Assembly (NCBI RefSeq): GCF_006861665.1
Contig: NZ_RKLU01000006.1
Coordinates: 1 to 64,000, forward strand
Source of the DNA: Halonotius terrestris
Lineage (GTDB): Archaea; Halobacteriota; Halobacteria; Halobacteriales; Haloferacaceae
Length of the DNA: 64,000 bases
Reading direction: 5' to 3'
Numbering within the stretch: position 1 is the stretch's first letter; every line of letters begins with the position of its first letter. The notes under the pieces were generated by a model. It saw nothing but the letters and a program-made list of their open reading frames with translations, made no database searches and had not been told where the DNA came from. The translations under genes were made by a program, and so were the position numbers. Shown in pieces: positions 3,532 to 58,327 of the stretch.

Positions 3532-4677
3532 TTACTCCAAGATGTCGAACACATCGACTGCTTTGTACTCCTTCCCACGTTCTTTCCCAGTCACTTCCTC
3601 GATGAGGCCATCCGATTCGAGGTCATCAACGACTTTGTAGGCAGTCCGGCGTGAGACGTCAAGATACTCCACGAGGTCTGGGGCCGTAAAATACGGATAC
3701 TGGAGTAACTGCCGAGCAAACGTGTCCGTATTTGTGCTGCCGGGGTACTCCTTCTCATACCGGGCTTGGAGATCTCTCAGTCGGTGAGTCCGATCATACG
3801 ACGTCTCAGCTTGACTTCTGAGTCCTTCGAGGAAGAACGTGAGCCATTCATTCCAGGCCCCGTTCTCGCTCACCGCACGCATCCGCTCGACGTACTCGAC
3901 TTTGTGCCGATTGAAGTACGCACTCGGATAGATGTATGGACTTTCGAGGTACCCTTCGCTCGCTAAATACAGAATAATGAGTAATCGACCGAGGCGACCA
4001 TTTCCATCCGAGAAAGGATGGACTGTCTCAAAGAAATAATGAATGATGGCGGCATCGACGAGGGGATGATACTGTCCCCCCATCTGGATATAGGATTCAA
4101 GTGATTTCATGAGTCCAGTGAGTCCCTCCGGAGTCGGTGGGACGAACGGACGCTGTCCCGACTGTGGGCTACTGAGATGAACCATATGGTCGCGGAAGTC
4201 ACCGACGACATCACCCTCGTTTCGGACATCCGCAAGCAACATCGAATGGAGTTCAGTGAGAAGTGAGAGTGTGATCGACGCTCCGCTCTCAATGCTGTTG
4301 AGTCCGTATGTGAGTGCACTCTCGTAATTGAGAGCCTCTTTCAGGTCTTTCTTGATTGTCGAGGTATCCCCGCCATCGGGATGCTTTGTGTGGTAGGCTT
4401 CGACATCTTGATATGCGACATCTGCCCCTTCGATACGTGCTGACTCGACGGCCTCGATACGTATGAGAGAGGTATACAGAACAGTTGAGAAGTCGACCGT
4501 CGAGCTGATGCCGTCGACACGACCGATTTGATATGCTGCATCGGCCACCAGATCGTGTGTCTTCTCGGAGAGTTCAAGCTTCGGCTCTACTGGGAGCGGC
4601 TCCGGTGAATAGTATGGATTCGGATGATAGGAGACATATTCTCCCGGTGCACTATCGGGGAGCTCTTTCGTGGGCAT
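3532..4677 (-). CDS. Fic-domain protein (probable AMP-transferase) with C-terminal winged helix
   Basis: The Fic core motif HPFSDGNGRLGR is complete (residues about 220-231): His for catalysis, GNGR for phosphate and metal binding. Fic enzymes usually transfer AMP from ATP to a protein hydroxyl. An N-terminal SARIEG (about 79-84) matches the [S/T]xxxE[G/N] inhibitory helix, so this is a self-inhibited class II Fic protein. The last about 70 residues (TAPDLVEYLDVSRRTAYKVVDDL) look like a winged helix for DNA binding. I chose ATG 4677 (MPTKELPDSAPGEYV), the usual haloarchaeal Fic N-terminus; a longer frame to 4752 runs into the promoter region. No toxin or antitoxin partner is adjacent; it may act as regulator or stand-alone toxin. 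About 381 residues. Confidence 0.85.
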   Translation of the reverse strand: MPTKELPDSAPGEYVSYHPNPYYSPEPLPVEPKLELSEKTHDLVADAAYQIGRVDGISSTVDFSTVLYTSLIRIEAVESARIEGADVAYQDVEAYHTKHPDGGDTSTIKKDLKEALNYESALTYGLNSIESGASITLSLLTELHSMLLADVRNEGDVVGDFRDHMVHLSSPQSGQRPFVPPTPEGLTGLMKSLESYIQMGGQYHPLVDAAIIHYFFETVHPFSDGNGRLGRLLIILYLASEGYLESPYIYPSAYFNRHKVEYVERMRAVSENGAWNEWLTFFLEGLRSQAETSYDRTHRLRDLQARYEKEYPGSTNTDTFARQLLQYPYFTAPDLVEYLDVSRRTAYKVVDDLESDGLIEEVTGKERGKEYKAVDVFDILE

Positions 4678-4776
4678 TTCTGTGATACCACTATCTGTTT
4701 CTATTGGTATAGTTGTTTTTATAGTGGGTATACATAGAAACTGTTCAAGCACGATAGTGAAAGATCAAGGGTGAAT

Positions 4777-7019: not shown

Positions 7020-8531
7020 TCAGAACTCACTCCCAGTCAAATCCGACTCATCCAACTGGGCATACATCTCATCTGGGAAGGGGAGACTTCCCCAGATCGA
7101 GTGTGGACATTGGTCTTCGCCGATGCAATACCGCTGCATGTCATCGTTGCCACAGTTCATCGGAAGCGGTGTGTTTCCACCAATTGTATTCGAAAATTCA
7201 TAGCGCAGCTGATAGTCCGTAACCTGCTCGTCATACCAAGACCAGCGAGAAAAGACGTCTTTGAGATCCTCCACAATGGTATCCAAATCACTCTCTTGGT
7301 ACTGCGGGAGCCACATCACCATCCGAGCGAAATTGTAGAGGTCTTTCCGGACGGGTTTCTGTTCAGCAAGTCGCTCAGCCATGTTCGCCATGCAAGGCAG
7401 CTCGAAGAGATCCTCGATTGCATCGACAGTAATGGGCTGAACGCTACCTGTTGACTGCTGAATCCGATAGTGGTTGGTATTGCCCTCCTTTCGAATCGTG
7501 AGGCTTCGATGCTCACGATGTGAACCGAGAATATTCCCAAGGCTTCGTGGACTAGAGATCCGGCTACAGACGGTTCGCTTCCACTCTGCATCCGGTTCGT
7601 AAGCATCCATTGCATCGTAGAGAGCGTTCGCTGAATAGAACTCACCGAGTACAACGGTCTCATCTGGAGCATCTCGAATTGCGTCTCGAAGCACACGAAT
7701 TGTCCGTTCACCGGGATCCCAGTTTCGCCAAATACGCTCGTTGTGTCCGGTTTCGATAAAGCGATCAATACGCTCCGTAATCGCCGTCTCGTTGGTCGTC
7801 AGCCATGTCAGTTGATCTTCTGAGAGGTTGTTCTCGTGAACCCACAGCAGTTTCTTGAACGCACGTTTGGCGTACTCTCGATACTTGGTATCGAAATCGC
7901 TGACCGGAACGTAGAGTCGATTGTTCTTCACCTGAGTGAGTAACTCACCGGACTCGCCGCTTTCACTCTCGGCACGAACGAGACATTTTCGAGAGGCAGC
8001 AGCCATCGGAATTTCGAGATACAGCCCCTCACCAAATTCTGGCATTTCTGTTATTGCCGTACAGACACGTCCGGGATGTGGGCCGTCTTCTCCGGGATCT
8101 TTCGAATACAGTACCTCGGCAATATCCTGTTGGAGGCTTGCCTCACCGAATTCTCGAAGGAGCGACGAGAGATTGTTGACATAGAGCTCTCGAATATCGT
8201 AGAGCACCTGAATGGTACGGGGTGGTACATCCTCGAATTTCGGATGGCCCTTGACACAGATTCCGCTCAGTGTCGCAAGAACAGCCAAAATCCCCGGTTC
8301 ATCGACGAAGGGCTCCGCTGCAGCGTCAGTTCTACGCTTTTTGTTGAACGCTGCCGTGCCGAACCGTTCGAGGTCGTCCAACAGGTCTTCTGGTCGGTCG
8401 TTCCCATCGACAATATAGCGGTCATAGCCTCGCGTGAACAGTTGGTTGATGCGTGTCTTGCTGGATTCGAGCGGAAGTGCAGCAACTCGGTAGGCATCAC
8501 TCTCATCATCAGCAGGCGTCGACATACTCAT
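7020..8531 (-). CDS. Probable primase large-subunit-like protein
   Basis: A 503-residue protein whose ATG overlaps the stop of the primase small-subunit-like gene (ATGA, 8528-8531), the arrangement of an obligate pair. The N-terminal about 250 residues are mostly helical. The C-terminal end carries three cysteines (about 460, 469, 475) in PMNCGNDDMQRYC and EDQCPHSIWG, resembling the C-terminal cysteine (Fe-S) region of archaeal PriL and related primase-associated domains. By analogy it would position the catalytic subunit on template. The assignment rests on gene pairing and the cysteine pattern; overall similarity to cellular PriL is weak. Confidence 0.55.
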   Translation of the reverse strand: MSMSTPADDESDAYRVAALPLESSKTRINQLFTRGYDRYIVDGNDRPEDLLDDLERFGTAAFNKKRRTDAAAEPFVDEPGILAVLATLSGICVKGHPKFEDVPPRTIQVLYDIRELYVNNLSSLLREFGEASLQQDIAEVLYSKDPGEDGPHPGRVCTAITEMPEFGEGLYLEIPMAAASRKCLVRAESESGESGELLTQVKNNRLYVPVSDFDTKYREYAKRAFKKLLWVHENNLSEDQLTWLTTNETAITERIDRFIETGHNERIWRNWDPGERTIRVLRDAIRDAPDETVVLGEFYSANALYDAMDAYEPDAEWKRTVCSRISSPRSLGNILGSHREHRSLTIRKEGNTNHYRIQQSTGSVQPITVDAIEDLFELPCMANMAERLAEQKPVRKDLYNFARMVMWLPQYQESDLDTIVEDLKDVFSRWSWYDEQVTDYQLRYEFSNTIGGNTPLPMNCGNDDMQRYCIGEDQCPHSIWGSLPFPDEMYAQLDESDLTGSEF

Positions 8532-9409
8532 TGGAGAACCTCTGGCGTCGCAGCTCGAATATCGAAATTCGGGCTCTCGATTGGCTGAACAACACTACAC
8601 ACATCAGCGTGCAAAGAATAGGGGAGACGGGCAACACGCCGGCGGTCAGCGGTTACTACTGGATCGATTGGGATCTCATAGGTTTCCTGCAAGAGGTCAT
8701 TCAGCACCTCTCGGCTCTTCGCGTCGTATCGGTTGGCCAAATCGGTATCAAGCAGATAGATATGAACTCCTTGACCGCTGTAGACAACCATCGTCTCCTC
8801 GGCGTTGAAATCGTCCTGGAAGATATCCCGAACTGCAAACCCATACTCGATACTACGCTCAACATCCTCGAATGCATACGGATAGCCTGCTGGATCGGCC
8901 TCTAGAATCCCTGCACGGTTCAGGAGAGCCTCAGAGTCTACTTCACCAACGTCGTCTCCGACTGCTTGTGCTGCTCGTTGTCGGGCTATCTCTTTAGCAT
9001 CGATATCGACGAGCAGTACCCACGGCCGCTCCCAGTGATCGAGCGCATAATACACGGCATCAGGACTGGGTGCAGGCTTCTCAAGTAGATCGGGATCAGC
9101 GAGGGCGAACTGACTCTTTCCGAGTGGATCATTCCGAGCCGGGTGGCGAATGAATTTGACGACATCCCCGAACTCGTTGAATGCGGCTTTTGTGCGATCT
9201 CCCGAGGAATTCGTCTGCCATGTATCCCGACGAATGAAGTCCTTCGCCGGGACTCCATCTTTCCGGACTGGGTGTGGCTCCCGAAATGCAAGGGCATACT
9301 GCTTCGGCCCACGCGACGTAATGAACGATGGGAGCTGGTCAACATACGAGGGGAACGCCTCTGTGTAGTAGGTATAGATCTCCTCGCGTGTCGCCTGTCG
9401 CCACGTCAT
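8528..9409 (-). CDS. Archaeo-eukaryotic primase (PriS-like catalytic subunit)
   Basis: A 293-residue protein with the archaeo-eukaryotic primase active-site set: VDID at about 134-137 (the two metal-binding aspartates), SGQGVHIYLLD at about 211-221 (the SGxxGxH nucleotide-binding motif), and TADRRRVARLPYSLH at about 253-267 (third acidic region plus the RLPxSLH motif typical of PriS). It should make RNA or DNA primers. It sits at the end of the conjugation-like operon; its ATG overlaps the coupling-protein stop by four bases (9406-9409). That position suggests a role in complementary-strand synthesis after transfer, as with primases carried by bacterial conjugative plasmids. Confidence 0.8.
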   Translation of the reverse strand: MTWRQATREEIYTYYTEAFPSYVDQLPSFITSRGPKQYALAFREPHPVRKDGVPAKDFIRRDTWQTNSSGDRTKAAFNEFGDVVKFIRHPARNDPLGKSQFALADPDLLEKPAPSPDAVYYALDHWERPWVLLVDIDAKEIARQRAAQAVGDDVGEVDSEALLNRAGILEADPAGYPYAFEDVERSIEYGFAVRDIFQDDFNAEETMVVYSGQGVHIYLLDTDLANRYDAKSREVLNDLLQETYEIPIDPVVTADRRRVARLPYSLHADVCSVVQPIESPNFDIRAATPEVLQ

Positions 9410-12400
9410 TGGTTGAACTCCTTGTCGAGATTGTTGAAGCTGCGAATCGTCGTCAACCCCGGTGCAGCTAACTCCTCGACAGCCTCACGAATGTCGCTGA
9501 ATGAGCGCGCTGTGCGGCCACTGACGCTACTCTCGATACGGTCGGCCTCAGCTAACCAATCTAATACTTCGACGGCCGTCTCCCGCCGATTGAATGCCCA
9601 GATAGCCTTTGCATCCACCTTACTCTGCTTGTCGTAGTCCTCAACGGGCGCATGTCTGTTATTGCTCGCAAGTTCCGCTTCGCCGACCCAGATGAGTGTT
9701 CCCTCGGTATCGAAGCCAGCAATGTCGAAGACCGTCTCATCGTCATATTGGTAGTAGCGTTTGACCGTCGCAACGTCGTCTTGAGCATCTAACCATCGTT
9801 CAAGCAGCCTCACACCAACCTTGTGTGGGGTTTTCTCGCCGATATCTCCCACATCAGGACCGACTTTGAGTTTCTCGCCGAGTAGTTCTCGTCCTGCCGG
9901 CAGGACAGTGTAGTACTTCCGCCCACAAGCTCGCCCTTCATCCACCAGAGACTGCTCAACGAGCCGTTGAATGTCGAGATCTTCGAACTCGTTTTTGAAC
10001 GAACTCATTGAGTCCAATAGCGTGTACTCCGTCGATTCACCATTCATTACCGCAAGAACACGAGTCAGAAACCGCACGTCGTCGTGAGTAAGCCCACGTT
10101 GGTTGAGTTCTTCATCAGAGACAGTTCCACCACCGGCTTTGATTGGTGAGGATGACCTTTCCGCCACAGGGAATGAATCCGCCTCTGTTGGAGGCGTTGT
10201 CGGCTCTGGGTGAGCCGTGGGCGCAACCATCGACTCAGTAGGATCAGTGCTTGTCTCATGGTCGTCATTGATATCTGAACGTGTGGTCGCCTGCCCAATG
10301 AACGAGGATTCCTTCGGCTCAGCAGCGACGGTCGAATTCGGGGGGCTGGCAGTTCTATTAGCGGATGTGCTTCCCCATCCTTCATCTTCGGACGAAGCTG
10401 ACGTATCGGGATTCTTTGTAAGGCCATAGCGAGCCTCAGTGAGCCGCCGTAATCGCGGTAGTGCAACGGTCTCAAAGTGATCTGCTTGTTCGTCAGTAAG
10501 CGGCTCGTCGCTCTCTGGGTGGCCAGCGGCTATTGGCAATGGCTTCACTGAGAATGGCGATGGCCCTGTCTCGCCAAACGACGGACTCGGTAACTGGGCG
10601 ATCCACTCACCACTGGGGAGCGTATTGATCCGGTTTCGCAGATCCGTCGGGCTCAAATCCTCATGGGCAAGCGACCTGGCGAGATCGGCTTCTATCGAGA
10701 TGTTCCCGATAAGCTTCGTCTTGATATTGTTGAGTACCTCGTCGTAGGCCCGCTGACTCCGATTTCGAACCTGCCCCGGAAACTGCATGACGAGGCCCAT
10801 GCTGAGACCGAATGACCGACCTTGTGGTAGCAACTGTTCGGAAACGAGTTTTGTTGACGCAACAGGAGCAGCTTCTTCGATGATGAGGTTGGTGAGTTTC
10901 TCGTAGCTCTTCTTCCCATCACGCCGGCGTAGCTGAACTGCATCCCAGAGGTTGCTCAACAGCAACAGCGTAATCACCCGCTGTGCTTCTGGACGAATAT
11001 CCCCCAAGTCAAACAGAATCGTAACGTCCTCCTCAAGGATGTCACGGAAGTCGAAATGAGTATCGACGTACTCGCCGCTGTCATCTCGGTGGGGTGCATG
11101 ACTGAAGATGCGCCGAAGGTGGGTATCCTCTCGGAGCTTATCGAGGCGATTCCCCACGGCGTCCATCGACAGTTGGAACTGGCGGTCGTCTTTCGCAAAA
11201 TGCCGCGTCAGCGATTCCTCGACATTCTGATTAGCCCCACTGACTGGTGGCACAATACGCTCTCGTTGCATATCGAGAACCGCCTCGAAGAGGTCGTCAA
11301 GCCCAAAGACGTCAGTACCGTACTCGCTATCGAAGAGGGCCTTGATCAGGTAGCTTTGAATCTCGTTGGCGACAAACGCTTGGCCGTACTGCTCACGACC
11401 CATGATCATCCGCATGATATCGTGAAAGTGGTCAACTTTGTCCTGGACTGCATCCTCGCGATTGCGTCCTGCTTCGAGAGCTGGCCGGATATCGAAAAAC
11501 GAGAACGCTGGCAGCGTCTCGGGGACACGGAACTGGTAGACATCATCCAAGCCATCGAACCGCTCGTAGTGACATCGGAGGTAATTCAGGCACATACCGT
11601 CGCCCTTCGGATCGACGATCACGACAGGCCCGCCAGTTGTTTCTCGCAGCGAGAGGGCGTCGTTGATGATCGCCTTTGATTTGCCACCACCAGTTGACGC
11701 AAATCGACCGAAATGTGTCGTCAAGAGCTCTGGTGGGACACGAATCGGATCGGAGATAGAAGCACCATTCTGATCGAGAGCATAGCCAATAGCCATGCCC
11801 TCTTGGAACTGCTGAATTAAATCCGGATTGGGCCACGGGAGCGGATTTCGACTTTGCTGTTCGGCACGAGTTCCTCGTGTCCCCTCGACTGTGAGCTGCT
11901 CTGAGGAAGGAATGACGACAAAGTTGGCGAGTTCCGTACTACCCAATACGAAGTCGGGACGGGCCTTACCACGACCAGTGACGAGCTCGCGGTCAAGGAT
12001 TCGGCTGAGCGTAGCCCGTGCGTTCTTCTCTTTTGTCTTCGTACGAAGCCCACGAGAGCGGATTCGTTGCCCTTCGACTTCGTAAAACGGGCCGTCCACG
12101 GGATCGAATACCGAACAGAGTGAATCCATCTTATTTGAGAGGTCAGCAGCCGTCACGTCGCTAGGAGGAATGCCGATTGCCCGGATATTGGCTGTAAACG
12201 AACGCTTCGAATTTTTCGCATCAAGATACTCGATCCGCTTTGCAACAGACTCGGTAAGCTGTTTTTCATCCCGCCGCTGATCGTTGATCTCAAAAATCGA
12301 GCCGAAGATCTCTTGGGAGAACGTGTCTCGCCCATCAATCAAATCCTCTCTTCGAATTCCAGCATCCGCCTGCCAGCCGTTTCGACGTTGGAAGACAACT

Positions 12401-13203
12401 TGAAACGCCACGGGAGCGGCGGCCTCGATCATGTGGTCGATGAGTGACGCCAGCGGACTGCCCGCGTGATCGACAGCCGGCAGTGCTTCCGTTGCGTCTC
12501 CAGAGGGAAACGGTGTTAACGAGGTCATCCAGTCTTTCTTCCGGGTAGCAGATCCACACCATCGCACCCCCATTGGTGAGACATCCTCTATGGCAGGACG
12601 GGCGAGAATAGTTCCATCCGATGTTACTGTTGGCTTTTCGAGTGAAAAGAGCGAACCCTCAGTAGGGATTCCACTTGGCGGTGCAAGCTTGAGTTCGATA
12701 TCATCGATCTCGATTGAATGATCGAAACGTGAACTGGCTGCCGTTCCACCATCTACAATTGGAAATTCTTCAGTTGCTTCACGCTGATCTTGTTCGTCAA
12801 TTTCCAACAGTTCATCGTCAGCGAATTCGTACAGCAATCGGCCCCGCTTATAATGGTCTCTGAATTCAGCTCTGGAGAATTCGACCGGCTGAATGAGTCG
12901 TGATTCCACATCCAGTTCAACTCGTTCAATGTCGAAGGTCTGGGGATAGATCGAATGAAGACGCTTTTCCAACGTATCAAGATGATCCTCAACCCCATAA
13001 TAGAACTCGACTGGTTCATCTTGTCCATCACTGAGTGCGAGAAACTCGAATCGAAGGGGTATCTCTGCATGCAGTGGGTTCAACTTCTGAGTGAGACCTG
13101 TTGAACCAGCTGTCGTCAGTTTGTGCAGGCTCTCGAAAACTCGTGGAATGCCTTCGGGACTGAGATCTTCAGATGTGGGCGTCACACGGAGGTACTCACG
13201 CAT
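9406..13203 (-). CDS. VirD4/TraD-type coupling ATPase
   Basis: About 1265 residues. Walker A is FASTGGGKSKA (about 501-511) and the Walker B-like strand is LTNLIIEEAAPVAS. Between them lie a VIVDPKGDG strand and VTILFDLGD, typical of HerA/FtsK/VirD4 ATPases. The N-terminal about 480 residues are divergent and a Ser/Thr/Pro-rich low-complexity linker (about 925-1045) joins a C-terminal winged-helix plus nuclease-like domain (LERWLDAQDDVATVKRYYQY, FDIAGFDTEGTLIWVGEAEL). It would bring DNA to the VirB4-energised channel. ATG 13203 overlaps the VirB4 stop by eight bases (ATGCGTGA), favouring this start over the frame extending to 13272. Confidence 0.8.
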   Translation of the reverse strand: MREYLRVTPTSEDLSPEGIPRVFESLHKLTTAGSTGLTQKLNPLHAEIPLRFEFLALSDGQDEPVEFYYGVEDHLDTLEKRLHSIYPQTFDIERVELDVESRLIQPVEFSRAEFRDHYKRGRLLYEFADDELLEIDEQDQREATEEFPIVDGGTAASSRFDHSIEIDDIELKLAPPSGIPTEGSLFSLEKPTVTSDGTILARPAIEDVSPMGVRWCGSATRKKDWMTSLTPFPSGDATEALPAVDHAGSPLASLIDHMIEAAAPVAFQVVFQRRNGWQADAGIRREDLIDGRDTFSQEIFGSIFEINDQRRDEKQLTESVAKRIEYLDAKNSKRSFTANIRAIGIPPSDVTAADLSNKMDSLCSVFDPVDGPFYEVEGQRIRSRGLRTKTKEKNARATLSRILDRELVTGRGKARPDFVLGSTELANFVVIPSSEQLTVEGTRGTRAEQQSRNPLPWPNPDLIQQFQEGMAIGYALDQNGASISDPIRVPPELLTTHFGRFASTGGGKSKAIINDALSLRETTGGPVVIVDPKGDGMCLNYLRCHYERFDGLDDVYQFRVPETLPAFSFFDIRPALEAGRNREDAVQDKVDHFHDIMRMIMGREQYGQAFVANEIQSYLIKALFDSEYGTDVFGLDDLFEAVLDMQRERIVPPVSGANQNVEESLTRHFAKDDRQFQLSMDAVGNRLDKLREDTHLRRIFSHAPHRDDSGEYVDTHFDFRDILEEDVTILFDLGDIRPEAQRVITLLLLSNLWDAVQLRRRDGKKSYEKLTNLIIEEAAPVASTKLVSEQLLPQGRSFGLSMGLVMQFPGQVRNRSQRAYDEVLNNIKTKLIGNISIEADLARSLAHEDLSPTDLRNRINTLPSGEWIAQLPSPSFGETGPSPFSVKPLPIAAGHPESDEPLTDEQADHFETVALPRLRRLTEARYGLTKNPDTSASSEDEGWGSTSANRTASPPNSTVAAEPKESSFIGQATTRSDINDDHETSTDPTESMVAPTAHPEPTTPPTEADSFPVAERSSSPIKAGGGTVSDEELNQRGLTHDDVRFLTRVLAVMNGESTEYTLLDSMSSFKNEFEDLDIQRLVEQSLVDEGRACGRKYYTVLPAGRELLGEKLKVGPDVGDIGEKTPHKVGVRLLERWLDAQDDVATVKRYYQYDDETVFDIAGFDTEGTLIWVGEAELASNNRHAPVEDYDKQSKVDAKAIWAFNRRETAVEVLDWLAEADRIESSVSGRTARSFSDIREAVEELAAPGLTTIRSFNNLDKEFNQ

Positions 13204-15397
13204 CGTCCTCACCCTCCAGTGTCCCTCCATCTGGCTTCGGAGGTGCGACATCTGCTTTTTGACTATCCCCATTGGTTGATTGCGTGTCTAACTGCTCTCC
13301 GAATCGCTCAGTATCCGCCTCGATAGAACCCTCACCAGCACCGGGGAGCGTTGACCAGCCGTTGCTCGGATCGAAGTCGATGACTTGCTTTTCGTTCGCC
13401 ATTGCTTCGACCCGAATGCCACGCCATTCACCATCGACGCCGACGAGGGCTTCCGAAAAGCCAGCCTCCTCGTTCCCGGGAACGGCATCCTGTACGTAGC
13501 GCATCTGGGCGTAATTCAGCCCGAATTCAGCAGCCCACTCATCGTCCATCCCATCGAGGCGATGGAACTGCTTGACCGCACACTGATCCAATATTGCCTC
13601 CGATTCCGCATGCTCGAAGAACTCATCGACAGTCTGCGTAACAAGTCGAATCGAGAGGTCATGGTGCCGGTGATGCCGGAAGACGGTCTCCAAGAATGAG
13701 AGACTCGCAGCGTCCTGCATGATGTAGCGAGCCTCGTCGATAACGAAGACCACCTCTTTGTCCGTCTCCTTAGCCCGCTCGTAGACAAGCGAGATGAGCA
13801 ACTGCATCGTGAGTGCGGTGCTGCTGTCGACGCTGCCTTCCTGTTGGGCAAGATCGAGGTAGATTACCTTCTCGTCGCGGATGTCGAACTCGGAGGCTTT
13901 GCCGAGATTCGCATGTCGACCATCTTCTTCGAAGGGGCGAAGCTGATCGAGGAGCCATGTTGCGTCGTCGCGGATCTTCCCGGCCTCTTCATCCGAACGA
14001 ACGACAAACTCCTCAGGGTTGTCGATCATCTCTTCGAAGAGATCCATCATCGTTCGGATCGTCGGACTCGGATTCCCGTGTGTCGAGATGTCGTCGGTGA
14101 TCTCGTTGCGTCTGTAGGCGCGCTTGAGGCCCAACTCTAGCGTTGTTCGGCGATCACCAAGTGAGATGCCACGGAGGGCAAAGAAGTTCGTCAGGAAGCT
14201 CATGGCGTCGTCGAGCTTCTCGTTGAACGGACTCGCATCCTCGCCCATCGCCCGTTGGACGTGATCGGGCGTCTGGCGGATTTCCAAGGGATTCAATCCA
14301 AGCGTCCCCCCAACCGTGATTCGTTTTGCATCAAGAGCCTCGGAGACGCCAGCCCAGTTATTCAGCGGTTCAAGGATGATGCCGATCCGGTCTTTGCTCT
14401 GTTCGATAGAGCGAATGAAATTCTGCTTCGAGCCAAATGACTTCCCTGAACCGGTATCGCCCACCGTGAACATCGCATACCCGTTATCGCGAGCAAACGG
14501 GTCGATGACGACCGGACTCTGGTTGTCCTTGTGAATGCCGAACTCTACTCCGCCCTCTTCGAGGATCGTCGCATTGTGTGGTGAAGCCAGCAAGGCACCG
14601 ACAGCTCCACCGAGAGCGATTGAATCACGACCGAAGCGATTGGCTCCGATCGGTGCGGCTGATTGCAAGGCGAGATCCTGCCGACAGATGGCTGTCTTTG
14701 GCGTGAGATTCGCCGGCTCATCTCGGAGCGCGCTTTTGACTTTCCGGACAGCATCCTCCAGATCTTCTTTATTCGATCCTCGAACCGTCACGAAGAGTGC
14801 TTGACCAAAGACGCTCGCACCATTCTCGACGGCTTTGTAGGTCTGTGCGGCCTCGTTGGCTCGCTCTTGAAGATATGATCCTCGAATACTCTGTTCGAGA
14901 TCTGCGTCTACTTGCAGGTCATCCGCGATATCTTGGAGCTCATTCCGGGCGCGCTGTTGGTTCTTTGGCGTTACATGCGTCGTCAGATCGAATTCGACAT
15001 CAGTCAACTCGAACAGATCGCTCAGATACCCATCACTTGGATAATCAGCATAATCAGCAATATACAGCGTTGATGTCCACTGCTCGCCGACATGGGCCGC
15101 TCGGGTATTCCATTCGATGGCCGCCGGCGCGGTCACCGTTTTGTGTGATTCCGAGATGTCATCCAATAGTTGGCCCTCGACTGCACCAGCTTCAAGCGTC
15201 TCTTCATCCAGGAGATCGCTGAACTCGACTTCGGGCTCGTCCTCACTGGTATATTTCTTCCAGATGAGTACCCCAGCACCAACACCGACGAGGATCACGA
15301 GATATACTAGTGCGCCCTCTGTTGTCGTAGGATTCTGAAGATACTCAGTAAGTTGAGCCAGTAGCACCAGAGAGGACTGCAAAACCACGCTATTCAT
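13196..15397 (-). CDS. VirB4-type conjugation ATPase
   Basis: About 733 residues. An N-terminal membrane helix (about 29-48) precedes the VirB4 N-terminal region. Walker A is VGDTGSGKSFGSK (about 312-324) and Walker B is VVFVIDEARYIM, followed by HHRHHDLSIRLVTQ, the arginine-rich and sensor region of VirB4/TrbE proteins. It powers substrate transfer or pilus assembly at the membrane. I chose ATG 15397: it has GGGAGG nine bases upstream and an eight-base overlap (ATGAATAG) with the preceding gene, the same style as the next junction. ATG 15406 is the alternative. A disordered acidic/Gly tail ends the protein. Confidence 0.85.
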   Translation of the reverse strand: MNSVVLQSSLVLLAQLTEYLQNPTTTEGALVYLVILVGVGAGVLIWKKYTSEDEPEVEFSDLLDEETLEAGAVEGQLLDDISESHKTVTAPAAIEWNTRAAHVGEQWTSTLYIADYADYPSDGYLSDLFELTDVEFDLTTHVTPKNQQRARNELQDIADDLQVDADLEQSIRGSYLQERANEAAQTYKAVENGASVFGQALFVTVRGSNKEDLEDAVRKVKSALRDEPANLTPKTAICRQDLALQSAAPIGANRFGRDSIALGGAVGALLASPHNATILEEGGVEFGIHKDNQSPVVIDPFARDNGYAMFTVGDTGSGKSFGSKQNFIRSIEQSKDRIGIILEPLNNWAGVSEALDAKRITVGGTLGLNPLEIRQTPDHVQRAMGEDASPFNEKLDDAMSFLTNFFALRGISLGDRRTTLELGLKRAYRRNEITDDISTHGNPSPTIRTMMDLFEEMIDNPEEFVVRSDEEAGKIRDDATWLLDQLRPFEEDGRHANLGKASEFDIRDEKVIYLDLAQQEGSVDSSTALTMQLLISLVYERAKETDKEVVFVIDEARYIMQDAASLSFLETVFRHHRHHDLSIRLVTQTVDEFFEHAESEAILDQCAVKQFHRLDGMDDEWAAEFGLNYAQMRYVQDAVPGNEEAGFSEALVGVDGEWRGIRVEAMANEKQVIDFDPSNGWSTLPGAGEGSIEADTERFGEQLDTQSTNGDSQKADVAPPKPDGGTLEGEDDA

Positions 15398-16505
15398 CGG
15401 CTGCATCCTCCCGGCGTGCGTGGTTGATAATCGGCTGTTGTCGAATCACATCGGCGGCATCGCCGTGATCGTGCCCGCGGCCGTTCCAGAAGTCCATATT
15501 CAACACGAACAACTCAACAGTGCTGAGCCGGCGAGCAGACCACCCAGAGGCCTGTTGGATGAATCCCGTCTGGAGGTCATTTACCCGACTATCAAGCTTC
15601 TCGAACATCTTCACGCGGCGTTCGACATCGGTGAAGTCCTCTCGGCGCGTCACAAACGGGTTGAACAGAAATCCAATGACTGGAATCCCAGTCAGTTTCT
15701 CGGCTGGGGTCCCCTCATCGCGGAATCGATCATAGATCTCCAACGGCGTCACCTCGACACCGAGGTAATATCGCATCTGTTGGGTTCCCCGATCGCGCAT
15801 TTCGCGGGGCCGTGTCTCTTGGTATTCTTCAAGCAGTTCGCGAAAAACCGTATTCTCCGTTACATCGTCATCACTGAGCCGCGCTTCGATGGTCTCAGTG
15901 ATTTGTTCCACTGGAAACGCACGGGTTGTCGCATGTAGCTTAAGTTTGGAGTCGAGTTCTTTATTGGCAAATCCCTCGCCCGCTTCTTGCAGCTGTGCCC
16001 AATCATCCGACATGGCGAAATCCATATTCCCAGGATCGATCTCGATGAACGCTTCCATCGTCCCGTCGGCACGTTGGATCGCACCAGCTCCCGGCCATGC
16101 CCGTTCGATATTAGTCAAATCCTGCGTTCGTTCGTCGGGCTTGAACGGTGAGTAGTTGGCGAGCCCACCCTCATTACGGACTGTCTCATTCGTGTCAGCG
16201 TCTGCTTCGAGTGGAGCATTGAACGTCACTCGGGGGCGTTTGACGTATCGATAGACGTCTTTTGTCCACGTCCATGCATTCACGTGATCGGGTGTCACGT
16301 AGATCACTGCAAATCCCAAGCCGAGTCCGCCAACCACGAAGGGGAGAGCAAGTGAGTCAACCCCGATGAGGCCGGCGATGAGAAGGCCGATAATCGGAAA
16401 GGCGATCAGTACGCCAACGTCGCCTTCCTCGATGTTGAGATAGGGAATACGGCTTTCGTCGCCGAACTGGTCCATGATCCGCCGTGCTGCTGCGTCTTGA
16501 TCCAT
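15390..16505 (-). CDS. VirB3/PrgI-like inner-membrane component of the transfer apparatus
   Basis: 371 residues. Two adjacent membrane helices (about 30-70: GVLIAFPIIGLLIAGLIGV, then ALPFVVGGLGLGFAVIYV) near the N-terminus followed by a large cytoplasmic domain (FNAPLEADADTNETVRNEGG onwards). This is the arrangement of VirB3/PrgI proteins that sit just before VirB4; the soluble part resembles VirB4 N-terminal sequences (AWPGAGAIQRADGTMEAFIEIDPGNM). The gene overlaps VirB4 by eight bases. Probably anchors VirB4 to the membrane complex. Family-level homology is too weak to prove by eye; synteny carries the call. Confidence 0.65.
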   Translation of the reverse strand: MDQDAAARRIMDQFGDESRIPYLNIEEGDVGVLIAFPIIGLLIAGLIGVDSLALPFVVGGLGLGFAVIYVTPDHVNAWTWTKDVYRYVKRPRVTFNAPLEADADTNETVRNEGGLANYSPFKPDERTQDLTNIERAWPGAGAIQRADGTMEAFIEIDPGNMDFAMSDDWAQLQEAGEGFANKELDSKLKLHATTRAFPVEQITETIEARLSDDDVTENTVFRELLEEYQETRPREMRDRGTQQMRYYLGVEVTPLEIYDRFRDEGTPAEKLTGIPVIGFLFNPFVTRREDFTDVERRVKMFEKLDSRVNDLQTGFIQQASGWSARRLSTVELFVLNMDFWNGRGHDHGDAADVIRQQPIINHARREDAADE

Positions 16506-18470: not shown

Positions 18471-20249
18471 CTAATTGAAGAACTCCGAAGGCCAGAACAT
18501 CCGAAGTAATCGATGGCCGGCATAGAACATCACAGCGAAGGGAATGAGTTGCCAGCCTGCGTTGAGCACAATTCCAACCCAGCTATCAAACGTACTGAGT
18601 GGGTGCCATCGAGTCGTTGCAGTGGTTCCCACGTACGCTGGATTGTGCGTAAGCCACGAGCCGGGCTGATATGTCGCAGTATAGAATCCCGGCGAGTCCA
18701 CAGTGAGCAACGCCACTCCAGATTCGTTGGTTACCAGCTGCTGATCGTCAACGGTGATATAGCCGCGACCGAGATCCCCACCGAACGGGCTCAACCGGTC
18801 GTCAGTGTTGAGCGCAATCGCCTCGCTAGTCTTGTTATCCCGGAGTGAAACCTGGAGTGTTGCGTGTGTATCGTTCTGTGTGAGTACGCCAATCGAGAGG
18901 TTACTCTCTCGAAGATCACGCTCATAGCCAGCCGGAGGCTCAATGAGCGATGCCTGAACACCGCGGACAATACCACCAACACGCAGTGCCTCCCGATCAA
19001 GTGTGTTCGCCCGTACAGCGACACCATCAGTCGGCGTGTAGGACTCAGTAACCACCTCGACGTTGATGTCCTCGTCCATCGAATCAGCAGGAGAGTTTCG
19101 CTCATCACCCCACGTACCAGTGAGAATCGGCCCATCGCGTTCAGGCTCGGCGCGTGGACCAATGTCGGAAGGATAGGCGTGAACATATACTGGGAGTGCC
19201 GGTGACTCGGATTCGGTACGTCCAGACCGATCTGCGGTTACTATGTGGTCCCAGCGAGCATCCCGTGCCGTATAGAATCGCCAGACACCTCTGACCGTTG
19301 CCTCTCCATTTTCAGTGAGCGTATAGCCCTGCCATGGACGGGAGTGAAAAATCGCAACTCCACGATCGCCGTTGGGGTACTCAGCATAGGAGACCGTCGC
19401 CGATGGATCGTAGATCTCTACGTCAATTGAGTCAGAAACCGTCCGCGTCTCGGTTGGAAAATCGACGTAGACGTCAGTGTAGTTGCCCCGGTCAACTCGT
19501 GTTGTTTTCCTCAGTCGGGTGGTAATGTCTGCTTCAAGCGTGAGCCGTTCACTTCGGGCACCACCGAACTGATACGGAAGCACCGGCGAATGTGAGCCAC
19601 TTGTTTTGGACATTGTATCGCCGTCGACGATGAGACGAGTCTCTTGGATCGAGTGACCGATGAGTGCCCAATTGACGGTTCGACTCCCCGAGGAATCACC
19701 ATCGGGAACGCGAATGCGATAATCGATGAACCCCCGCATCTCCCCTTTCGGAGCGATATACAGTGGCGTGGTATCCAAGTCGAGGTGACCACGGGTCGAT
19801 GGCTGCACTGCGAACACTGTCGCATGGGCATCCTTGATGTACGTCCCACTTTCGAGATCAGCGTGAGCGGGATACACAGACGTCTGAGTGCCGCCGGCGT
19901 TGAGGTCTGTGAAATCATTCCGCGTCCACGTTTCGGCAGTGGCAGGCGGTCGCTTGAACGTGATATCAGTTCCGTTGGCGACCTGGGCTGGTGTCGAGCG
20001 TTCAGTCCCGTATTGCTGGAAGTACTCCTCTTGAGTAATGTAGCGATCAGCGTCGCCAGACCACAGTGTCGCCGTTTCATTCGCGCTAAGCCCATTTGCA
20101 GCTGTTCCTGACTGTGGCGGACTTGCCGTGACGGTGCCTGTGGCTATACACCCTACGAGGAGAAGACCGAGTATCACGCTGCGAGGCCCCTCCAATAGGT
20201 TTCTACCCGGGAGCGATCCCGTGTTCACCACGGGACGAGATTCACGCAC
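18471..20249 (-). CDS. Large secreted/surface protein with C-terminal membrane anchor
   Basis: 592 residues. A hydrophobic signal (about 22-43, SVILGLLLVGCIATGTVTA) is followed by a long beta-rich Thr/Asp-rich ectodomain with several NxS/T sites and a C-terminal helix (about 555-585, GIVLNAGWQLIPFAVMFYAGH) ending in a short charged tail. Topology: outside domain, single anchor. Its place between the pilin candidate and the lipoprotein suggests a surface scaffold or mating-contact protein. No family recognised. Its start overlaps the upstream gene by 25 bases. Confidence 0.7.
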   Translation of the reverse strand: MRESRPVVNTGSLPGRNLLEGPRSVILGLLLVGCIATGTVTASPPQSGTAANGLSANETATLWSGDADRYITQEEYFQQYGTERSTPAQVANGTDITFKRPPATAETWTRNDFTDLNAGGTQTSVYPAHADLESGTYIKDAHATVFAVQPSTRGHLDLDTTPLYIAPKGEMRGFIDYRIRVPDGDSSGSRTVNWALIGHSIQETRLIVDGDTMSKTSGSHSPVLPYQFGGARSERLTLEADITTRLRKTTRVDRGNYTDVYVDFPTETRTVSDSIDVEIYDPSATVSYAEYPNGDRGVAIFHSRPWQGYTLTENGEATVRGVWRFYTARDARWDHIVTADRSGRTESESPALPVYVHAYPSDIGPRAEPERDGPILTGTWGDERNSPADSMDEDINVEVVTESYTPTDGVAVRANTLDREALRVGGIVRGVQASLIEPPAGYERDLRESNLSIGVLTQNDTHATLQVSLRDNKTSEAIALNTDDRLSPFGGDLGRGYITVDDQQLVTNESGVALLTVDSPGFYTATYQPGSWLTHNPAYVGTTATTRWHPLSTFDSWVGIVLNAGWQLIPFAVMFYAGHRLLRMFWPSEFFN

Positions 20250-20653
20250 TCAGCCAATGGCAGTCCCATGATCGGCCCAGCGACCGTATACAACGGCCCT
20301 AAGACTACCAGAATGACCGCCGACTTCATCGCCGACCGCTTGTGACGTTTGAGTCCCCGTTTCTGCTCGGGATCAAGGGTAAACATATCGACGAGTGAAT
20401 CAGCTTGCCAGATCACGACCAGCCCCATGATGCCGAGGGAAGTCGTAATCTGGAAGAACCCCTCGATAATGCCAGGAAGGTTCTGCGCATCGCACACAGA
20501 ACTCTGTAAGGGGACTTGTGCTGCAACGGGCCCAACAGCGACACTCGACACCAGGAGGGTTGTCAGTGCTGCGAAGGCTAGTTTTCTGTGTGGTTGTCGA
20601 TAAGGACGAACAGGCCAGTATTCTTGTAAGGATAATTCGTCAATCTTTGACAT
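20225..20653 (-). CDS. Small membrane protein, VirB2-pilin-like candidate
   Basis: 142 residues from ATG 20653. A signal-like helix with AxA-type end (FAALTTLLVSSVAVGPVAAQ, about 32-51) is followed by two hydrophobic segments (ITTSLGIMGLVVIW and AVILVVLGPLYTVAGPIMG) separated by a basic loop (EQKRGLKRHKR). A cleaved leader plus two helices and a short polar loop is the plan of VirB2/TrbC pilins; this one is somewhat longer. First gene of the operon. Function inferred from topology and position only. Confidence 0.55.
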   Translation of the reverse strand: MSKIDELSLQEYWPVRPYRQPHRKLAFAALTTLLVSSVAVGPVAAQVPLQSSVCDAQNLPGIIEGFFQITTSLGIMGLVVIWQADSLVDMFTLDPEQKRGLKRHKRSAMKSAVILVVLGPLYTVAGPIMGLPLAECVNLVPW

Positions 20654-20746
20654 GTATGGGTAGTGGTGGCCATTCCGCTGCCACCAATACTCTTCGAGCA
20701 AAGTGGAAGCACGGAATCGGCTCTAAGAGCTACTACTGAGCAACCG

Positions 20747-24653: not shown

Positions 24654-24833
24654 TCATTGCTCAATGATGTCTCCCTCACCAACGTCGAGCGTCTCCTCAA
24701 GCTCAGCAAGGATTTCTTGACCCTCTTCGCGGAGCTCTTGTGCTTCTTCGAGGGAAACCTCGCCGTCTTCGAGCTGCTCGATGATTGTTTCGACTCGGTC
24801 CACCTTGTCGCTGACTGGGGTATTCTCGCTCAT
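24654..24833 (-). CDS. xseB: Exodeoxyribonuclease VII small subunit
   Basis: 59 residues on the minus strand, from ATG 24833 to TGA 24654: MSENTPVSDKVDRVETIIEQ, then LEDGEVSLEEAQELREEGQE and a short acidic tail. The helix-turn-helix hairpin with LEDGEVSLEEA is the XseB signature. Its ATG overlaps the xseA stop region (24830-24833). XseB binds XseA in many copies to form the single-strand exonuclease VII. Confidence 0.85.
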   Translation of the reverse strand: MSENTPVSDKVDRVETIIEQLEDGEVSLEEAQELREEGQEILAELEETLDVGEGDIIEQ

Positions 24834-26068
24834 GTGATCACGTAGAGAGCGGCTAGGCCAAGAACGACCAGTACCAGCACGGCGATTGCAATCTTGTATC
24901 GTCGCTGTTGTCTGGCCACCCTCGCCTCCGCTTCGGTCATAGCTTCATCGCGAACTTCTTCGACTGTTTCTTCGAGTTGTTCTTCGTGCTCTTTCTCCTG
25001 TTCAAGTGTCTGGTAGGCAGTCTCCAGCTGATTCCGTAGCTCCAGAATCTCTGCCTCAACATGGCGGTCAGCAGCATGCGCAAGTGAGGCCTCCAACTGC
25101 TGTAGGCGACTGCCAACCACGCTCTCGTAGGCGTTATCGAGCGCGGTTTCCGAAGCCGTGAGTTTGGCTTCGATAGCACTCTGGTAGGCCGTATCGAGTC
25201 GCTCCGAAAGCTGGGTGCGTTCTCGGTCAAGATCTGATCGCTTCGGGACGACTTCGCCAGCATGTGTCGGCGTCATAAACCGGAAATCGGCCACCTCATC
25301 GGCCAACGTCTGATCGTCTTCGTGGCCGATGCCTACCGCGGTCGGTGTCTCGGTGTTAGCAAGCACTCGACAGAGTGGTGTCTCGTTGAACGTCCGGAGT
25401 GTTTTGTCTGCGCCACCACCACGGGTGACGATGATCACATCGATAGTGGTGTCTTCATCGAAGGCTGCAACGCCGCTGATCAGCTCTTGGAGGGCGGTTG
25501 GCCCCTGCACGTTGGCATCATGGATCTTGATATCTACCTCGGGATAGCGGTCATGAATTGCGGTGACCGCGTCGATCCGCGCATCACTATCGGCTGAAGT
25601 AACGATACCAACCGTGGCAGGCAATTCCGGAAGCGACTGTTTTTGATCATCGTCAAGCAAGCCATCGGCTGCGAGTTTCTCTTTATTTTCTTTATAGATC
25701 TGGCTGTACTCGCTTTCGCCCATGTTGACAACATCCTCAATGATGAGCGAGCACGATCCCTGTGGCTCATAGTAAGAGAGTTCACCCCGAACGGCGACAT
25801 GCATATCTTCGTCAGGTATTGCATTCAACGACTTGTGGCGAACTCCGAAGACGACACAGTGGATGGATCTACTATCGAAAACCAAATCGAAATGCAGGTG
25901 GCCGTTGGACTCACGGCAGTCAGAGGCATCACCGACGACGTAGTCGTGATTGAGTTCACGACGATCATCGATGACCGCGGCGATCTCCTCATTGAGTGTC
26001 GCCACAGTGACGACATCGTCACTATCGAGTTCGGCGACAGCATCGGTTGTCACATCTGCGTTCGCCAT
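24830..26068 (-). CDS. xseA: Exodeoxyribonuclease VII large subunit with C-terminal membrane helix
   Basis: 412 residues. An N-terminal OB-fold (VATLNEEIAAVIDDR, HLHFDLVFDSRSIHCVVF), then the catalytic region (ATVGIVTSADSDARIDAVTAI, VIIVTRGGGADKTLRTFNE, AVGIGHEDDQTLADEVADFR) contains the GRGGG-like and GHExD motifs of XseA. A long coiled coil (about 275-385) follows. The last about 25 residues (KIAIAVLVLVVLGLAALYVI) are a membrane helix, so the nuclease may be tethered to the membrane. Acts on single-stranded DNA. Forms an operon with xseB by four-base overlap. Confidence 0.85.
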   Translation of the reverse strand: MANADVTTDAVAELDSDDVVTVATLNEEIAAVIDDRRELNHDYVVGDASDCRESNGHLHFDLVFDSRSIHCVVFGVRHKSLNAIPDEDMHVAVRGELSYYEPQGSCSLIIEDVVNMGESEYSQIYKENKEKLAADGLLDDDQKQSLPELPATVGIVTSADSDARIDAVTAIHDRYPEVDIKIHDANVQGPTALQELISGVAAFDEDTTIDVIIVTRGGGADKTLRTFNETPLCRVLANTETPTAVGIGHEDDQTLADEVADFRFMTPTHAGEVVPKRSDLDRERTQLSERLDTAYQSAIEAKLTASETALDNAYESVVGSRLQQLEASLAHAADRHVEAEILELRNQLETAYQTLEQEKEHEEQLEETVEEVRDEAMTEAEARVARQQRRYKIAIAVLVLVVLGLAALYVIT

Positions 26069-51912: not shown

Positions 51913-52142
51913 TGTTCTTCAGGGGCTGGTTGGAGTTATCAGGGATCTGGATATCGGCGAACCAGCCTTTGTATTGACGAGTGAATAGATTTGATCTTGA
52001 TTCGACCCCGCGACTTTCAATAGATTGTACTGCTCCGTTTTCGGGAGGTCGGTTCGGATCTTCGTCTATAACCAATTAACTTCCTCCGTGTAGTGCTCAT
52101 CAATGGTAGTCGGCCCCAGGAGTCCGTGCTTCCAAATGATTT

Positions 52143-52188
52143 CATAGTAAACCTATGCAAATTGGTTTTGAACGGGCTTTTATATACT
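52143..52188 (+). promoter_or_regulatory. McrB promoter with CATAG-TAAAC-CTATG inverted repeat
   Basis: CTTTTATATACT (52177-52188) is a good TATA box about 27 bases before ATG 52210, implying a leaderless message. Upstream at 52143-52157 lies CATAG-TAAAC-CTATG, a short inverted repeat at a regulator-binding position. Confidence 0.5.
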
Positions 52189-52209
52189 GTGGGCGACATG
52201 TATCCGATA

Positions 52210-53439
52210 ATGAGTGATTCGTCGGACGACTATACGCTTGAAGATGCGAAAGACGAAGTCGGAATACTCCGCCGTGTAACTGATGACGTTGTCGATGCAA
52301 TTCAGAATGCAGAGAGCGAAGACGTACTGGAGTTCCTAATCGAGACCGAGGAACTTGACGTGATCCACGACGGAAAGCGTGGATTAGGCCGGGTGCGACG
52401 TGCCGTGCTTGAGTCACCGCTGGCCTCAGACCGTCTCAAGCGCGTCGTGAGCCTCCGTGGTGACGAAACACCAGAAGATATACTCGTCCCAAAAGACGTG
52501 GAGCGCAACACCAAAGTCGCACTCGAAGCCGGGAAGCCGGTTGTCCTGTACGGGCCGACCGGAACGGGGAAGACAACTTTCGCCAAGCAGCTCGCCCGTG
52601 AGACCGGCATCGGGTACGCTCTCAACACTGCGACACCCTCATGGACGCCGTCGGACATTATTGGTGGAATTAGCCCGGATTACACTGGTGACTCGCTAAG
52701 CTATCGGACGAAACTCGGCTGCGTGTCCGAAGCCGTACAGCGTGCTCGCCGGTTCGATGTAGAGTACGGCGTGATCCTTGATGAGATCACGCGGGCCGAC
52801 ATCTCGAAAATCTTCGGCCCGCTGTACACAGCCATCGAAAACCCCCATCAGACCATCTTCGAGACCGATGAAGGGGAGACTATTGAACTGGATGAACGGG
52901 TGAACATCATCTGTACGATGAATATGTCGGATCGGACGGTAAACGAACTCGACAACGCGATCACACGGCGGTTCGCTATGATTGAGTTGGACGAGTATGA
53001 GGAGGACAAGCGGCGGAAGCTGTTCAAAGACTGGATAACCACGCACGTTACTGACCACACTGATCTCGGAGAAAGCGAGATCCTCAACCTGTTTGAGCGG
53101 GACTACCAAGGGATCAACCACGGTCATGAATCGACATCACAAGGGTCCATTATGCGGTTCGGCCCGATGCATTACCGCGATGTTGCCGTCTTCCTTGGCG
53201 TCGGCTGTCGAGAAGGCGGAGAGTACGAATATGACCAGACAGACGCAGTCGGGCAGGCGTTCCGGACATACATCGTTCCTAGACTCCTGAACGCCGCCGC
53301 ATTCCCCCAGATCGAGCGGATCGCGGAACACTATCGCGCGATGAACGGAGAGTTCGAGGAGTTTGATCTCGCCCCTGCTGCTGAGCTAGCCGAACGGGAA
53401 CTCGAACAGGAACGCCACCAGATGGGCTCCTACGAGTAA
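52210..53439 (+). CDS. mcrB: McrB-like AAA+ NTPase
   Basis: 409 residues from ATG 52210 (MSDSSDDYTLEDAKDEVGIL). Walker A GPTGTGKTT (about 115-123), Walker B YGVILDEITRADISKIFGPL (LDE then the McrB-type ISKIFG), sensor-1 IICTMNMSDRTVNELDNA and the arginine finger TRRFAMIEL. These are the motifs of McrB-type motors, normally GTP-driven, which power the McrC nuclease against modified DNA. The N-terminal part is short and helical with no recognised DNA-reading domain. Translation is coupled to McrC (TAATG). Confidence 0.8.
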   Translation: MSDSSDDYTLEDAKDEVGILRRVTDDVVDAIQNAESEDVLEFLIETEELDVIHDGKRGLGRVRRAVLESPLASDRLKRVVSLRGDETPEDILVPKDVERNTKVALEAGKPVVLYGPTGTGKTTFAKQLARETGIGYALNTATPSWTPSDIIGGISPDYTGDSLSYRTKLGCVSEAVQRARRFDVEYGVILDEITRADISKIFGPLYTAIENPHQTIFETDEGETIELDERVNIICTMNMSDRTVNELDNAITRRFAMIELDEYEEDKRRKLFKDWITTHVTDHTDLGESEILNLFERDYQGINHGHESTSQGSIMRFGPMHYRDVAVFLGVGCREGGEYEYDQTDAVGQAFRTYIVPRLLNAAAFPQIERIAEHYRAMNGEFEEFDLAPAAELAERELEQERHQMGSYE

Positions 53440-55199: not shown

Positions 55200-55216
55200 A
55201 TAGTATTATCGTGAGA

Positions 55217-55600
55217 TTAAAACGGCGCGACGAGCCACTCTCCACTCTCTTTCCGGTCGAGCTGTGGCCCAAAGACCCGCTGAAGCGAGTGGAGTTCGTC
55301 ATCGTACCGAAGGTCGTAGGTCTTACCACTTCGATGAAACGACCCTTCGACGACGAACTGTATCGTGGGACTTTGATACTCCAGATCGTTCGCACGTTGA
55401 TCCATCTCACGGGCGAGTTCGGTCGCTATATCCTCATCACTCAGGGCATCCGCGAGTCCGACGACACTCACTTTCTCGGGAACATTATTCTCCTTGAGCC
55501 GCTGGAGGAACTCCTTTACGGGAATCTGGTGTTCGAAGGTATCGCAGGCACCTTCGATGATGAGATTGTACTGTCCAGGTATCTGTCCGGGGCCTGTCAT
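55217..55600 (-). CDS. Hypothetical protein in the defence island
   Basis: 127 residues on the minus strand: YNLIIEGACDTFEHQIPVKE, FLQRLKENNVPEKVSVVGLA, ANDLEYQSPTIQFVVEGSFH, KTYDLRYDDELHSLQRVFGP. Mixed alpha-beta, no recognised motif. It is convergent with mcrC (17-base gap) and shares the strand of the methyltransferase/DUF499 genes, from which it is now separated by the SMC-like pair, so it may originally belong to either unit. Confidence 0.55.
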   Translation of the reverse strand: MTGPGQIPGQYNLIIEGACDTFEHQIPVKEFLQRLKENNVPEKVSVVGLADALSDEDIATELAREMDQRANDLEYQSPTIQFVVEGSFHRSGKTYDLRYDDELHSLQRVFGPQLDRKESGEWLVAPF

Positions 55601-55711
55601 TCTTACTGGAGATTATCTTCGCCGAGTCAAGTAATTGTGTTGCTTGCCAACTCTATATCTGATAGCTCGTTTTGATGTGGTTTTATTCACTGACAATTCA
55701 TTTAGGCCAGT

Positions 55712-55906
55712 ATGGTTGACGGTGGCCGAAATCTGGAGAAAGAAATCATAGATTCATTTTTTGAAGAAGTACGCCGAGACGACTCAATACCGGATGATGT
55801 GGCAGCCGAACTGGAACGGCTTGAGAACCAAGACGATTTGACTGATTCTTCCAAAGTGATTAGAGTTGCAGAGGAGGTGCTCTCTGATGTACATTCAGAA
55901 GATTGA
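55712..55906 (+). CDS. Small acidic protein translated with the SMC-like ATPase
   Basis: 64 residues, all helical and acidic (LEKEIIDSFFEEVRRDDSIP, DDVAAELERLENQDDLTDSS, VIRVAEEVLSDVHSED). Its 3' end overlaps the ATPase start by 20 bases and encloses that gene's ribosome binding site, so translation is coupled. Small partners of this type accompany several SMC/ABC-type defence ATPases; no family recognised. Confidence 0.65.
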   Translation: MVDGGRNLEKEIIDSFFEEVRRDDSIPDDVAAELERLENQDDLTDSSKVIRVAEEVLSDVHSED

Positions 55907-58325: not shown

Positions 58326-58327
58326 AT

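Follow-up and report, generated by a model that had tools for sequence, protein, structure and literature searches.

Organisation of the operon

The window analysed here (64,000 nucleotides of the Halonotius terrestris contig NZ_RKLU01000006.1) is part of a 113 kb haloarchaeal contig (G000:C23) and harbours a single minus-strand operon that runs from position 20701 to 7020, with two primase genes at its 3' end. Both primase reading frames lie on the minus strand exactly where the initial annotation had placed them. The operon comprises the following features:

20225..20701, minus strand: operon gene 1, small membrane protein (158 aa) with hydrophobic segments, conserved position
18471..20249, minus strand: surface or membrane-anchored protein (592 aa), conserved position, 47-63% identity
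17609..18523, minus strand: probable secreted protein or lipoprotein (304 aa), conserved position, 33-55% identity
16518..17606, minus strand: TrbL/VirB6 channel protein (PF19590, E 1.6e-135)
15390..16505, minus strand: membrane protein (371 aa) in the VirB3/TcpE position (synteny; weak TcpE match, E 0.13)
13196..15406, minus strand: VirB4-type T4SS ATPase (736 aa; NF045975, E 8e-35; TIGR00929, E 2.5e-12)
9406..13272, minus strand: VirD4/HerA-like coupling ATPase (1288 aa; PF01935 DUF87, E 1.5e-6; CedD, E 3e-4; Walker A at 526)
9406..9409, minus strand: ATGA stop/start overlap VirD4-PriS (...ccaATGAcg)
8528..9409, minus strand: PriS-like catalytic subunit (293 aa; TIGR00335, E 6e-9; PDB PriS 1g71, E 1.5e-8)
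8528..8531, minus strand: ATGA stop/start overlap PriS-PriL (...ccaATGAgt)
7020..8531, minus strand: PriL-like large subunit (503 aa; NF038197, E 7e-253; PriL CTD profile; AF2 model)

Based on the profile matches to VirB4, VirD4/T4CP and VirB6/TrbL, the core of a conjugative T4SS is present, and the 371-aa membrane protein invariably adjoins VirB4 and is syntenic across haloarchaeal operons. The ATGA overlaps that had been proposed to couple the coupling-protein gene, the PriS-like gene and its partner are found in the DNA, and the same -4 nt overlap recurs in 31 of 38 fetched homologous loci at the VirD4-PriS and at the PriS-PriL junction alike; the three genes are thus translationally coupled. 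Compared with close relatives, both primase genes show dN/dS values of about 0.05-0.07, a sign of strong purifying selection, which indicates that they are maintained.

Besides the operon, the window of this plasmid contig encodes a protein with a Fic domain and a C-terminal HTH, whose gene (3532-4752) lies shortly downstream of the operon, the large subunit of Exonuclease VII (XseA, 24830-26068) and a probable defence island (52093-63972) with an McrB-like AAA ATPase and its partner, an SMC/LmuB-like ATPase, a DUF1156/HmaB-like methylase and an HmaC-like ATPase.

A plasmid-borne PriS and its PriL-like partner

The catalytic subunit carries the complete set of motifs ascribed to it in the initial annotation, namely DID (residues 135-137) as motif I, SGQGVH (211-216) as motif II and D249...RLPYSLH (RLPYSLH at 261-267) as motif III. 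Its profile finds archaeal PriS structures with colinear blocks that comprise the N-terminus and motifs I, II and III, and the motifs align with the active-site blocks of the P. furiosus and P. horikoshii PriS proteins (1g71/1v33). Among the 15 members compared, D135, D137, D249, G212, G214, H216, R261, P263 and H267 are invariant. The scores against the curated families stay below their cut-offs (35.7 bits versus 143.5 for the equivalog TIGR00335, 24.1 bits versus 26.8 for PF01896), because the zinc-binding stem between motifs I and II, whose ligands (CxHH...CxxC) the methanogen-side relatives retain, is absent from the window protein and the haloarchaeal members, and because the motif II-III region of the window protein is about 100 residues shorter. 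Judged by its sequence, the 293-aa product is a PriS-type AEP primase with a full catalytic triad and predicted priming activity.

Since the ordinary PriS and PriL of the host sit on other contigs of the same genome, the window pair represents a second primase. In a quick tree with long branches, the haloarchaeal and methanogen-side plasmid PriS proteins form one clade apart from chromosomal PriS (SH-aLRT 99), which argues for an old mobile-element lineage and not for a recent derivative of the host's gene. Solo PriS-like paralogues of about 280 aa, which have no PriL-like neighbour, occur beside the normal PriS in genomes of two other families (L136, L137, L139-L144, L147, L148); they were rejected as members of the plasmid lineage, as they fall into a different clade in the tree.

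The partner belongs to NF038197 (839.7 bits versus a cut-off of 100), an NCBIfam family that is named “primase-associated protein” and has no function assigned. The C-terminal cysteines noted at the outset proved to be C380, C460, C469 and C475, which are invariant in the haloarchaeal members and show PriL-like spacing. In hhalign comparisons with 21 chromosomal PriL proteins, residues 365-503 align to the PriL Fe-S domain with an E-value of 2.5e-9, and the match to the PriL CTD was also obtained from a haloarchaeal-only (E 2.2e-7) and a methanogen-side-only alignment (E 2.4e-7); the controls (60 with shuffled columns, one reversed, five unrelated) gave E-values of 0.036 or worse, and those with shuffled columns did not fall below 0.05.

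For the whole partner, AF2 reached a pLDDT of only 58.6 with a shallow alignment, which rose to 84 (pTM 0.65) when methanogen-side relatives were added to give a 39-member alignment. The domain order consists of a PriL-NTD-like helical part, a winged helix (~273-357) and a PriL-type Fe-S domain (~370-490), with the winged helix inserted between the two PriL parts as an extra element relative to PriL. In a Foldseek search against the PDB, primase large-subunit chains lead (5exr_B, 8v6g_C, 2dla_C, 9f26_B, 1zt2_B), followed by winged-helix proteins; the match to 2dla_C has a probability of 0.97 and a TM-score of 0.51 by target and that to 1zt2_B a TM-score of 0.49, with E-values of only 8e-3 or weaker. 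The N-terminal 365 aa gave no PriL match in sequence-profile comparisons and resemble PriL by fold only. A PF04104 search had no match in the window partner and a best E-value of 3e-4 in 2 of 17 relatives, no primase was returned when the partner was compared with PDB sequences by HMM, and profile searches for a PriCT domain had no match in either primase gene product. Given the weak fold E-values and the N-terminal half without a profile match, the C-terminal part can firmly be assigned as a PriL-type Fe-S domain with a predicted cluster, and the modelled N-terminal half is probably a PriL-NTD. The 503-aa partner is a diverged PriL, in agreement with the structural relationship that had been anticipated for it.

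The pair thus shares with chromosomal PriS-PriL an AEP subunit with DxD, SGxGxH and D...RLPxSLH motifs and a partner with a four-cysteine C-terminal domain and a probably PriL-like N-terminal fold, but it is plasmid-borne, resides within a T4SS operon and belongs to a separate clade, the haloarchaeal plasmid PriS has no zinc stem and the plasmid PriL adds a winged helix. PolpTN2 of the Thermococcus plasmid pTN2 and PrimPol-PV1 are likewise mobile-element AEPs with PriL/PriCT-like and winged-helix parts (PMC5862659). In contrast to the two genes described here, which are locked to VirD4, these enzymes are single polypeptides with PriCT. Divergent PriL-like copies also occur without an adjacent PriS gene or T4SS (L061, L067, L260), and many genomes contain numerous PriL-like gene fragments, often the C-terminal domain alone, which suggests frequent decay of these operons.

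Linkage to the coupling protein and the primase slot

A scan of 84,980 prokaryote genomes yielded 65 named loci, and the PriL-like partner is present in all of them, as four loci initially flagged as lacking it were explained by ORF starts or an insertion. VirD4 precedes PriS in each of the 60 loci with at least 3 kb of upstream sequence and VirB4 is found near PriS in 52 of 54, so that the proposed association of the pair with VirD4/VirB4 genes extends well beyond the window. Divergent copies, with PriS only 40-60% identical, keep the order VirD4-PriS-PriL even where VirB4 is only ~25% identical. Within the class, 67 of 242 genomes have NF038197 matches, and since dozens of species share the arrangement, it is not due to chance. 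In PLSDB, 78 plasmids from many genera carry the operon, including Halobacterium pNRC200 and pHS3, and all 78 are typed as “non-mobilizable” by MOB-suite. Complete operons are also located in chromosomal contigs (L034, 3.5 Mb; L059, 2.7 Mb), and therefore the pair tracks the T4SS and not one replicon.

Outside the haloarchaea, adjacent PriS and PriL genes were found at five loci (L256, L257, L258, L134, L135). A HerA-type ATPase and a topoisomerase are encoded close to the pair in L258 and L135, and no VirB4 was detected near the pair in the methanogen-side loci L256, L257 and L134. For the HerA-like ATPases adjacent to the pair in methanogens, orthology with VirD4 was not supported (E 0.03). 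On one further non-haloarchaeal contig (L145), a VirB4-like gene is accompanied by a short gene of the PriS-like kind and by a Prim-Pol gene separate from it, a set that resembles the primase and HerA clusters of Methanoperedens plasmids (PMC9674854). Phage records contained no PriS of this kind, a scan of viral contigs no relatives and the BFVD folds no primase signal; a viral origin is therefore without support here.

VirB4 of the operon type is more widespread than the pair (156 of 242 genomes of the class). We sampled 40 VirB4 loci without regard to primase, of which 35 had enough downstream sequence and 21 of these encode VirD4. Where VirB4 is 80% identical and PriS/PriL are missing, the slot behind VirD4 is occupied by a protein of about 420 aa with Prim/Pol motifs, which contains the HBD domain of the NrS-1 polymerase (PF22763, E about 1e-31) and matches the NrS-1 primase structures 6k9a/6a9w over residues 11-320 (E 2e-38). 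The enzyme of phage NrS-1 makes primers de novo (PMC7102993, PMC8718748). Such loci are L307-L319, L321-L324 and L339 (e.g. L309:12323-13594), and an ORF of 90-150 aa often precedes the primase gene. This single-chain protein of another AEP family is absent from the window's operon.

In the 21 operons with VirD4, the slot holds an NrS-1-like PrimPol in 18 cases and a candidate primase of about 670 aa in three (L320:6336-8357, L335:3171-5186, L336:3395-5407). The latter has no Pfam family; by eye, it shows the AEP-like motifs GDIDLAD, GGAYVFG and NRQYKPPLSIH and a zinc-like CWRH...C stretch. A profile match to PrimPol was discarded, as it runs through a coiled coil only. Operons without VirD4 have a primase, of the NrS-1-like type, in only 2 of 14 cases, as opposed to 21 of 21 with VirD4; for the NrS-1-like protein alone (18/21 versus 2/14) the p value is 5e-5, which serves as a guide only, since the sampled loci are phylogenetically non-independent. 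The window's own genome has four VirB4 loci: C23 with the PriS/PriL pair, C1 with the 670-aa type (L335), and C26 and C9, whose VirB4 proteins are 80% identical and whose contigs stop inside VirD4.

The initial annotation had spoken of an evolutionary replacement. A PriS/PriL pair indeed fills the slot here, but sister operons use a different primase, so it is the slot that is conserved and not the pair. Of the arguments for priming as a part of transfer, the strongest is that one slot has three AEP solutions, all tracking the coupling protein.

These data also bear on the alternative that the plasmid uses the pair as its ordinary replication primase, whose place at the end of the transfer operon would then be historical. 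One PolB and two Orc1/Cdc6 genes reside in the same window, so that ordinary replication could be the task of the primase, which counts against a role in transfer, and the methanogen-side loci keep the pair without a detectable VirB4 nearby. However, the distance from the pair is at least ~14 kb to the closest Orc1/Cdc6 gene and 21 kb to PolB, the haloarchaeal linkage to VirD4 is strict, chromosomally integrated operons included, and another primase family fills the identical slot. We therefore consider a mere replication primase unlikely.

A probable role in DNA transfer

During bacterial conjugation, a relaxase cuts, one strand moves and the complement is synthesised later. Archaeal systems possess VirB4 and VirD4 but no known relaxase (PMC3158045, PMC12857230). 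Double-strand transfer has been proposed for Sulfolobus plasmids (PMC6563490), and single-strand transfer has also been proposed for archaea (PMC9905601). In our data, no conserved relaxase-like neighbour was noticed in the surroundings of the operon. The hidden relaxase could be Rep-Arvir (DUF7845) or a different rolling-circle nickase of a known type, with a mechanism exactly as in bacterial conjugation, and some integrative and conjugative elements of archaea do carry DUF7845 proteins (PMC13107129), but no such protein is encoded on the operon's contig in 45 operon-bearing genomes, nor anywhere in the window's genome, which renders this explanation highly improbable.

In the VirD4-like ATPase, the last ~190 aa (window 9409-9975) contain an invariant E, D, ExE and K, and this pattern could represent a PD-(D/E)xK-like nuclease fused to the motor; searches of the tail against Pfam and PDB gave no match confirming such a nuclease. 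In sister operons, the tail instead shows a weak match to a D5-type winged helix (PF03288, E 0.0055).

The missing relaxase would also suit a VirB4/HerA-based export, DNA-uptake or defence device in which the primase acts in repair or defence, as HerA-type ATPases and primases are known from defence and repair too and the ATPase has weak PADLOC mad8/HerA matches. Yet PADLOC finds neither primase gene, the TrbL/VirB6, VirB4 and coupling-protein genes occur together and plasmids from many genera carry the operon; we thus assign only a small likelihood to such a device.

A primase serving conjugation is in itself known. AEP primases tied to bacterial mobilisation proteins, such as RSF1010 RepB' and R1162 MobA, are described in PMC5862659 and PMC12857230, the latter citing that the R1162 primase is required for mobilisation (Henderson and Meyer 1999). 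These enzymes and the primases of bacterial conjugative plasmids resemble the haloarchaeal pair in being tied to DNA-transfer genes, but they are single chains that are relaxase-fused or -linked, whereas the pair has its fixed place after a coupling protein and no relaxase was detected. Among archaeal systems, pT33-3, the Sulfolobus plasmids and Ced/Ted likewise combine VirB4 with VirD4/HerA-type ATPases and have no known relaxase, but the searched sections of PMC12857230 and PMC9905601 describe no primase slot behind the coupling ATPase. NCBI already lists the two genes as “DNA primase” and “primase-associated protein”, and within the open-access literature we found no paper that names the partner PriL, links the pair to a T4SS or describes the slot. 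New, therefore, is the two-subunit PriS/PriL enzyme fixed behind the coupling protein.

Taken as a whole, we favour as the probable explanation that the pair is a mobile-element-specific primase serving single-strand transfer by a haloarchaeal conjugation system. The PriS-like protein and the Fe-S and winged-helix PriL-like protein would form an archaeal-type primase heterodimer, co-produced with the VirD4/HerA coupling ATPase of the VirB4/VirB6 system. This motor would load plasmid DNA as a single strand into the channel. The co-expressed primase may then prime the transferred strand in the recipient, the strand that remains in the donor, or both, so that the double strand could be restored without waiting for the host primase. 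Coupled production of the primase and the coupling ATPase is consistent with single-strand transfer, and the slot behind the coupling protein together with the lack of a detectable relaxase argues for it. If double-stranded DNA moves, as proposed for Sulfolobus (PMC6563490), there would be less need for a transfer primase, which counts against our explanation, as do the MOB-suite typing of the 78 plasmids and the negative outcome of the relaxase searches. A broader and more tentative possibility is that haloarchaeal conjugation is a relaxase-free single-strand machine, in which a VirD4/HerA motor with a nuclease-like or winged-helix tail makes and drives the strand and each operon brings its own AEP primase (PriS/PriL, NrS-1-like PrimPol or the 670-aa type).

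In this context, the plasmid PriL is a clear exception to the description of PriL as almost exclusively chromosomal (PMC5862659), and the widespread “primase-associated protein” family gains a function as plasmid PriL. At least 78 public plasmids, including pNRC200, seem to bear transfer genes despite their non-mobilizable typing, and the slot points to genes that are open to knock-out. The finding also bears on relaxase-less archaeal conjugation and on the question of single- versus double-stranded transfer (PMC3158045, PMC6563490, PMC9905601), as a slot behind the coupling ATPase that is filled by different primases in sister operons provides indirect evidence for a single-stranded intermediate. 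A haloarchaeal plasmid transfer cluster that ends in a primase thus suggests that the DNA is passed on as a single strand that needs re-priming.
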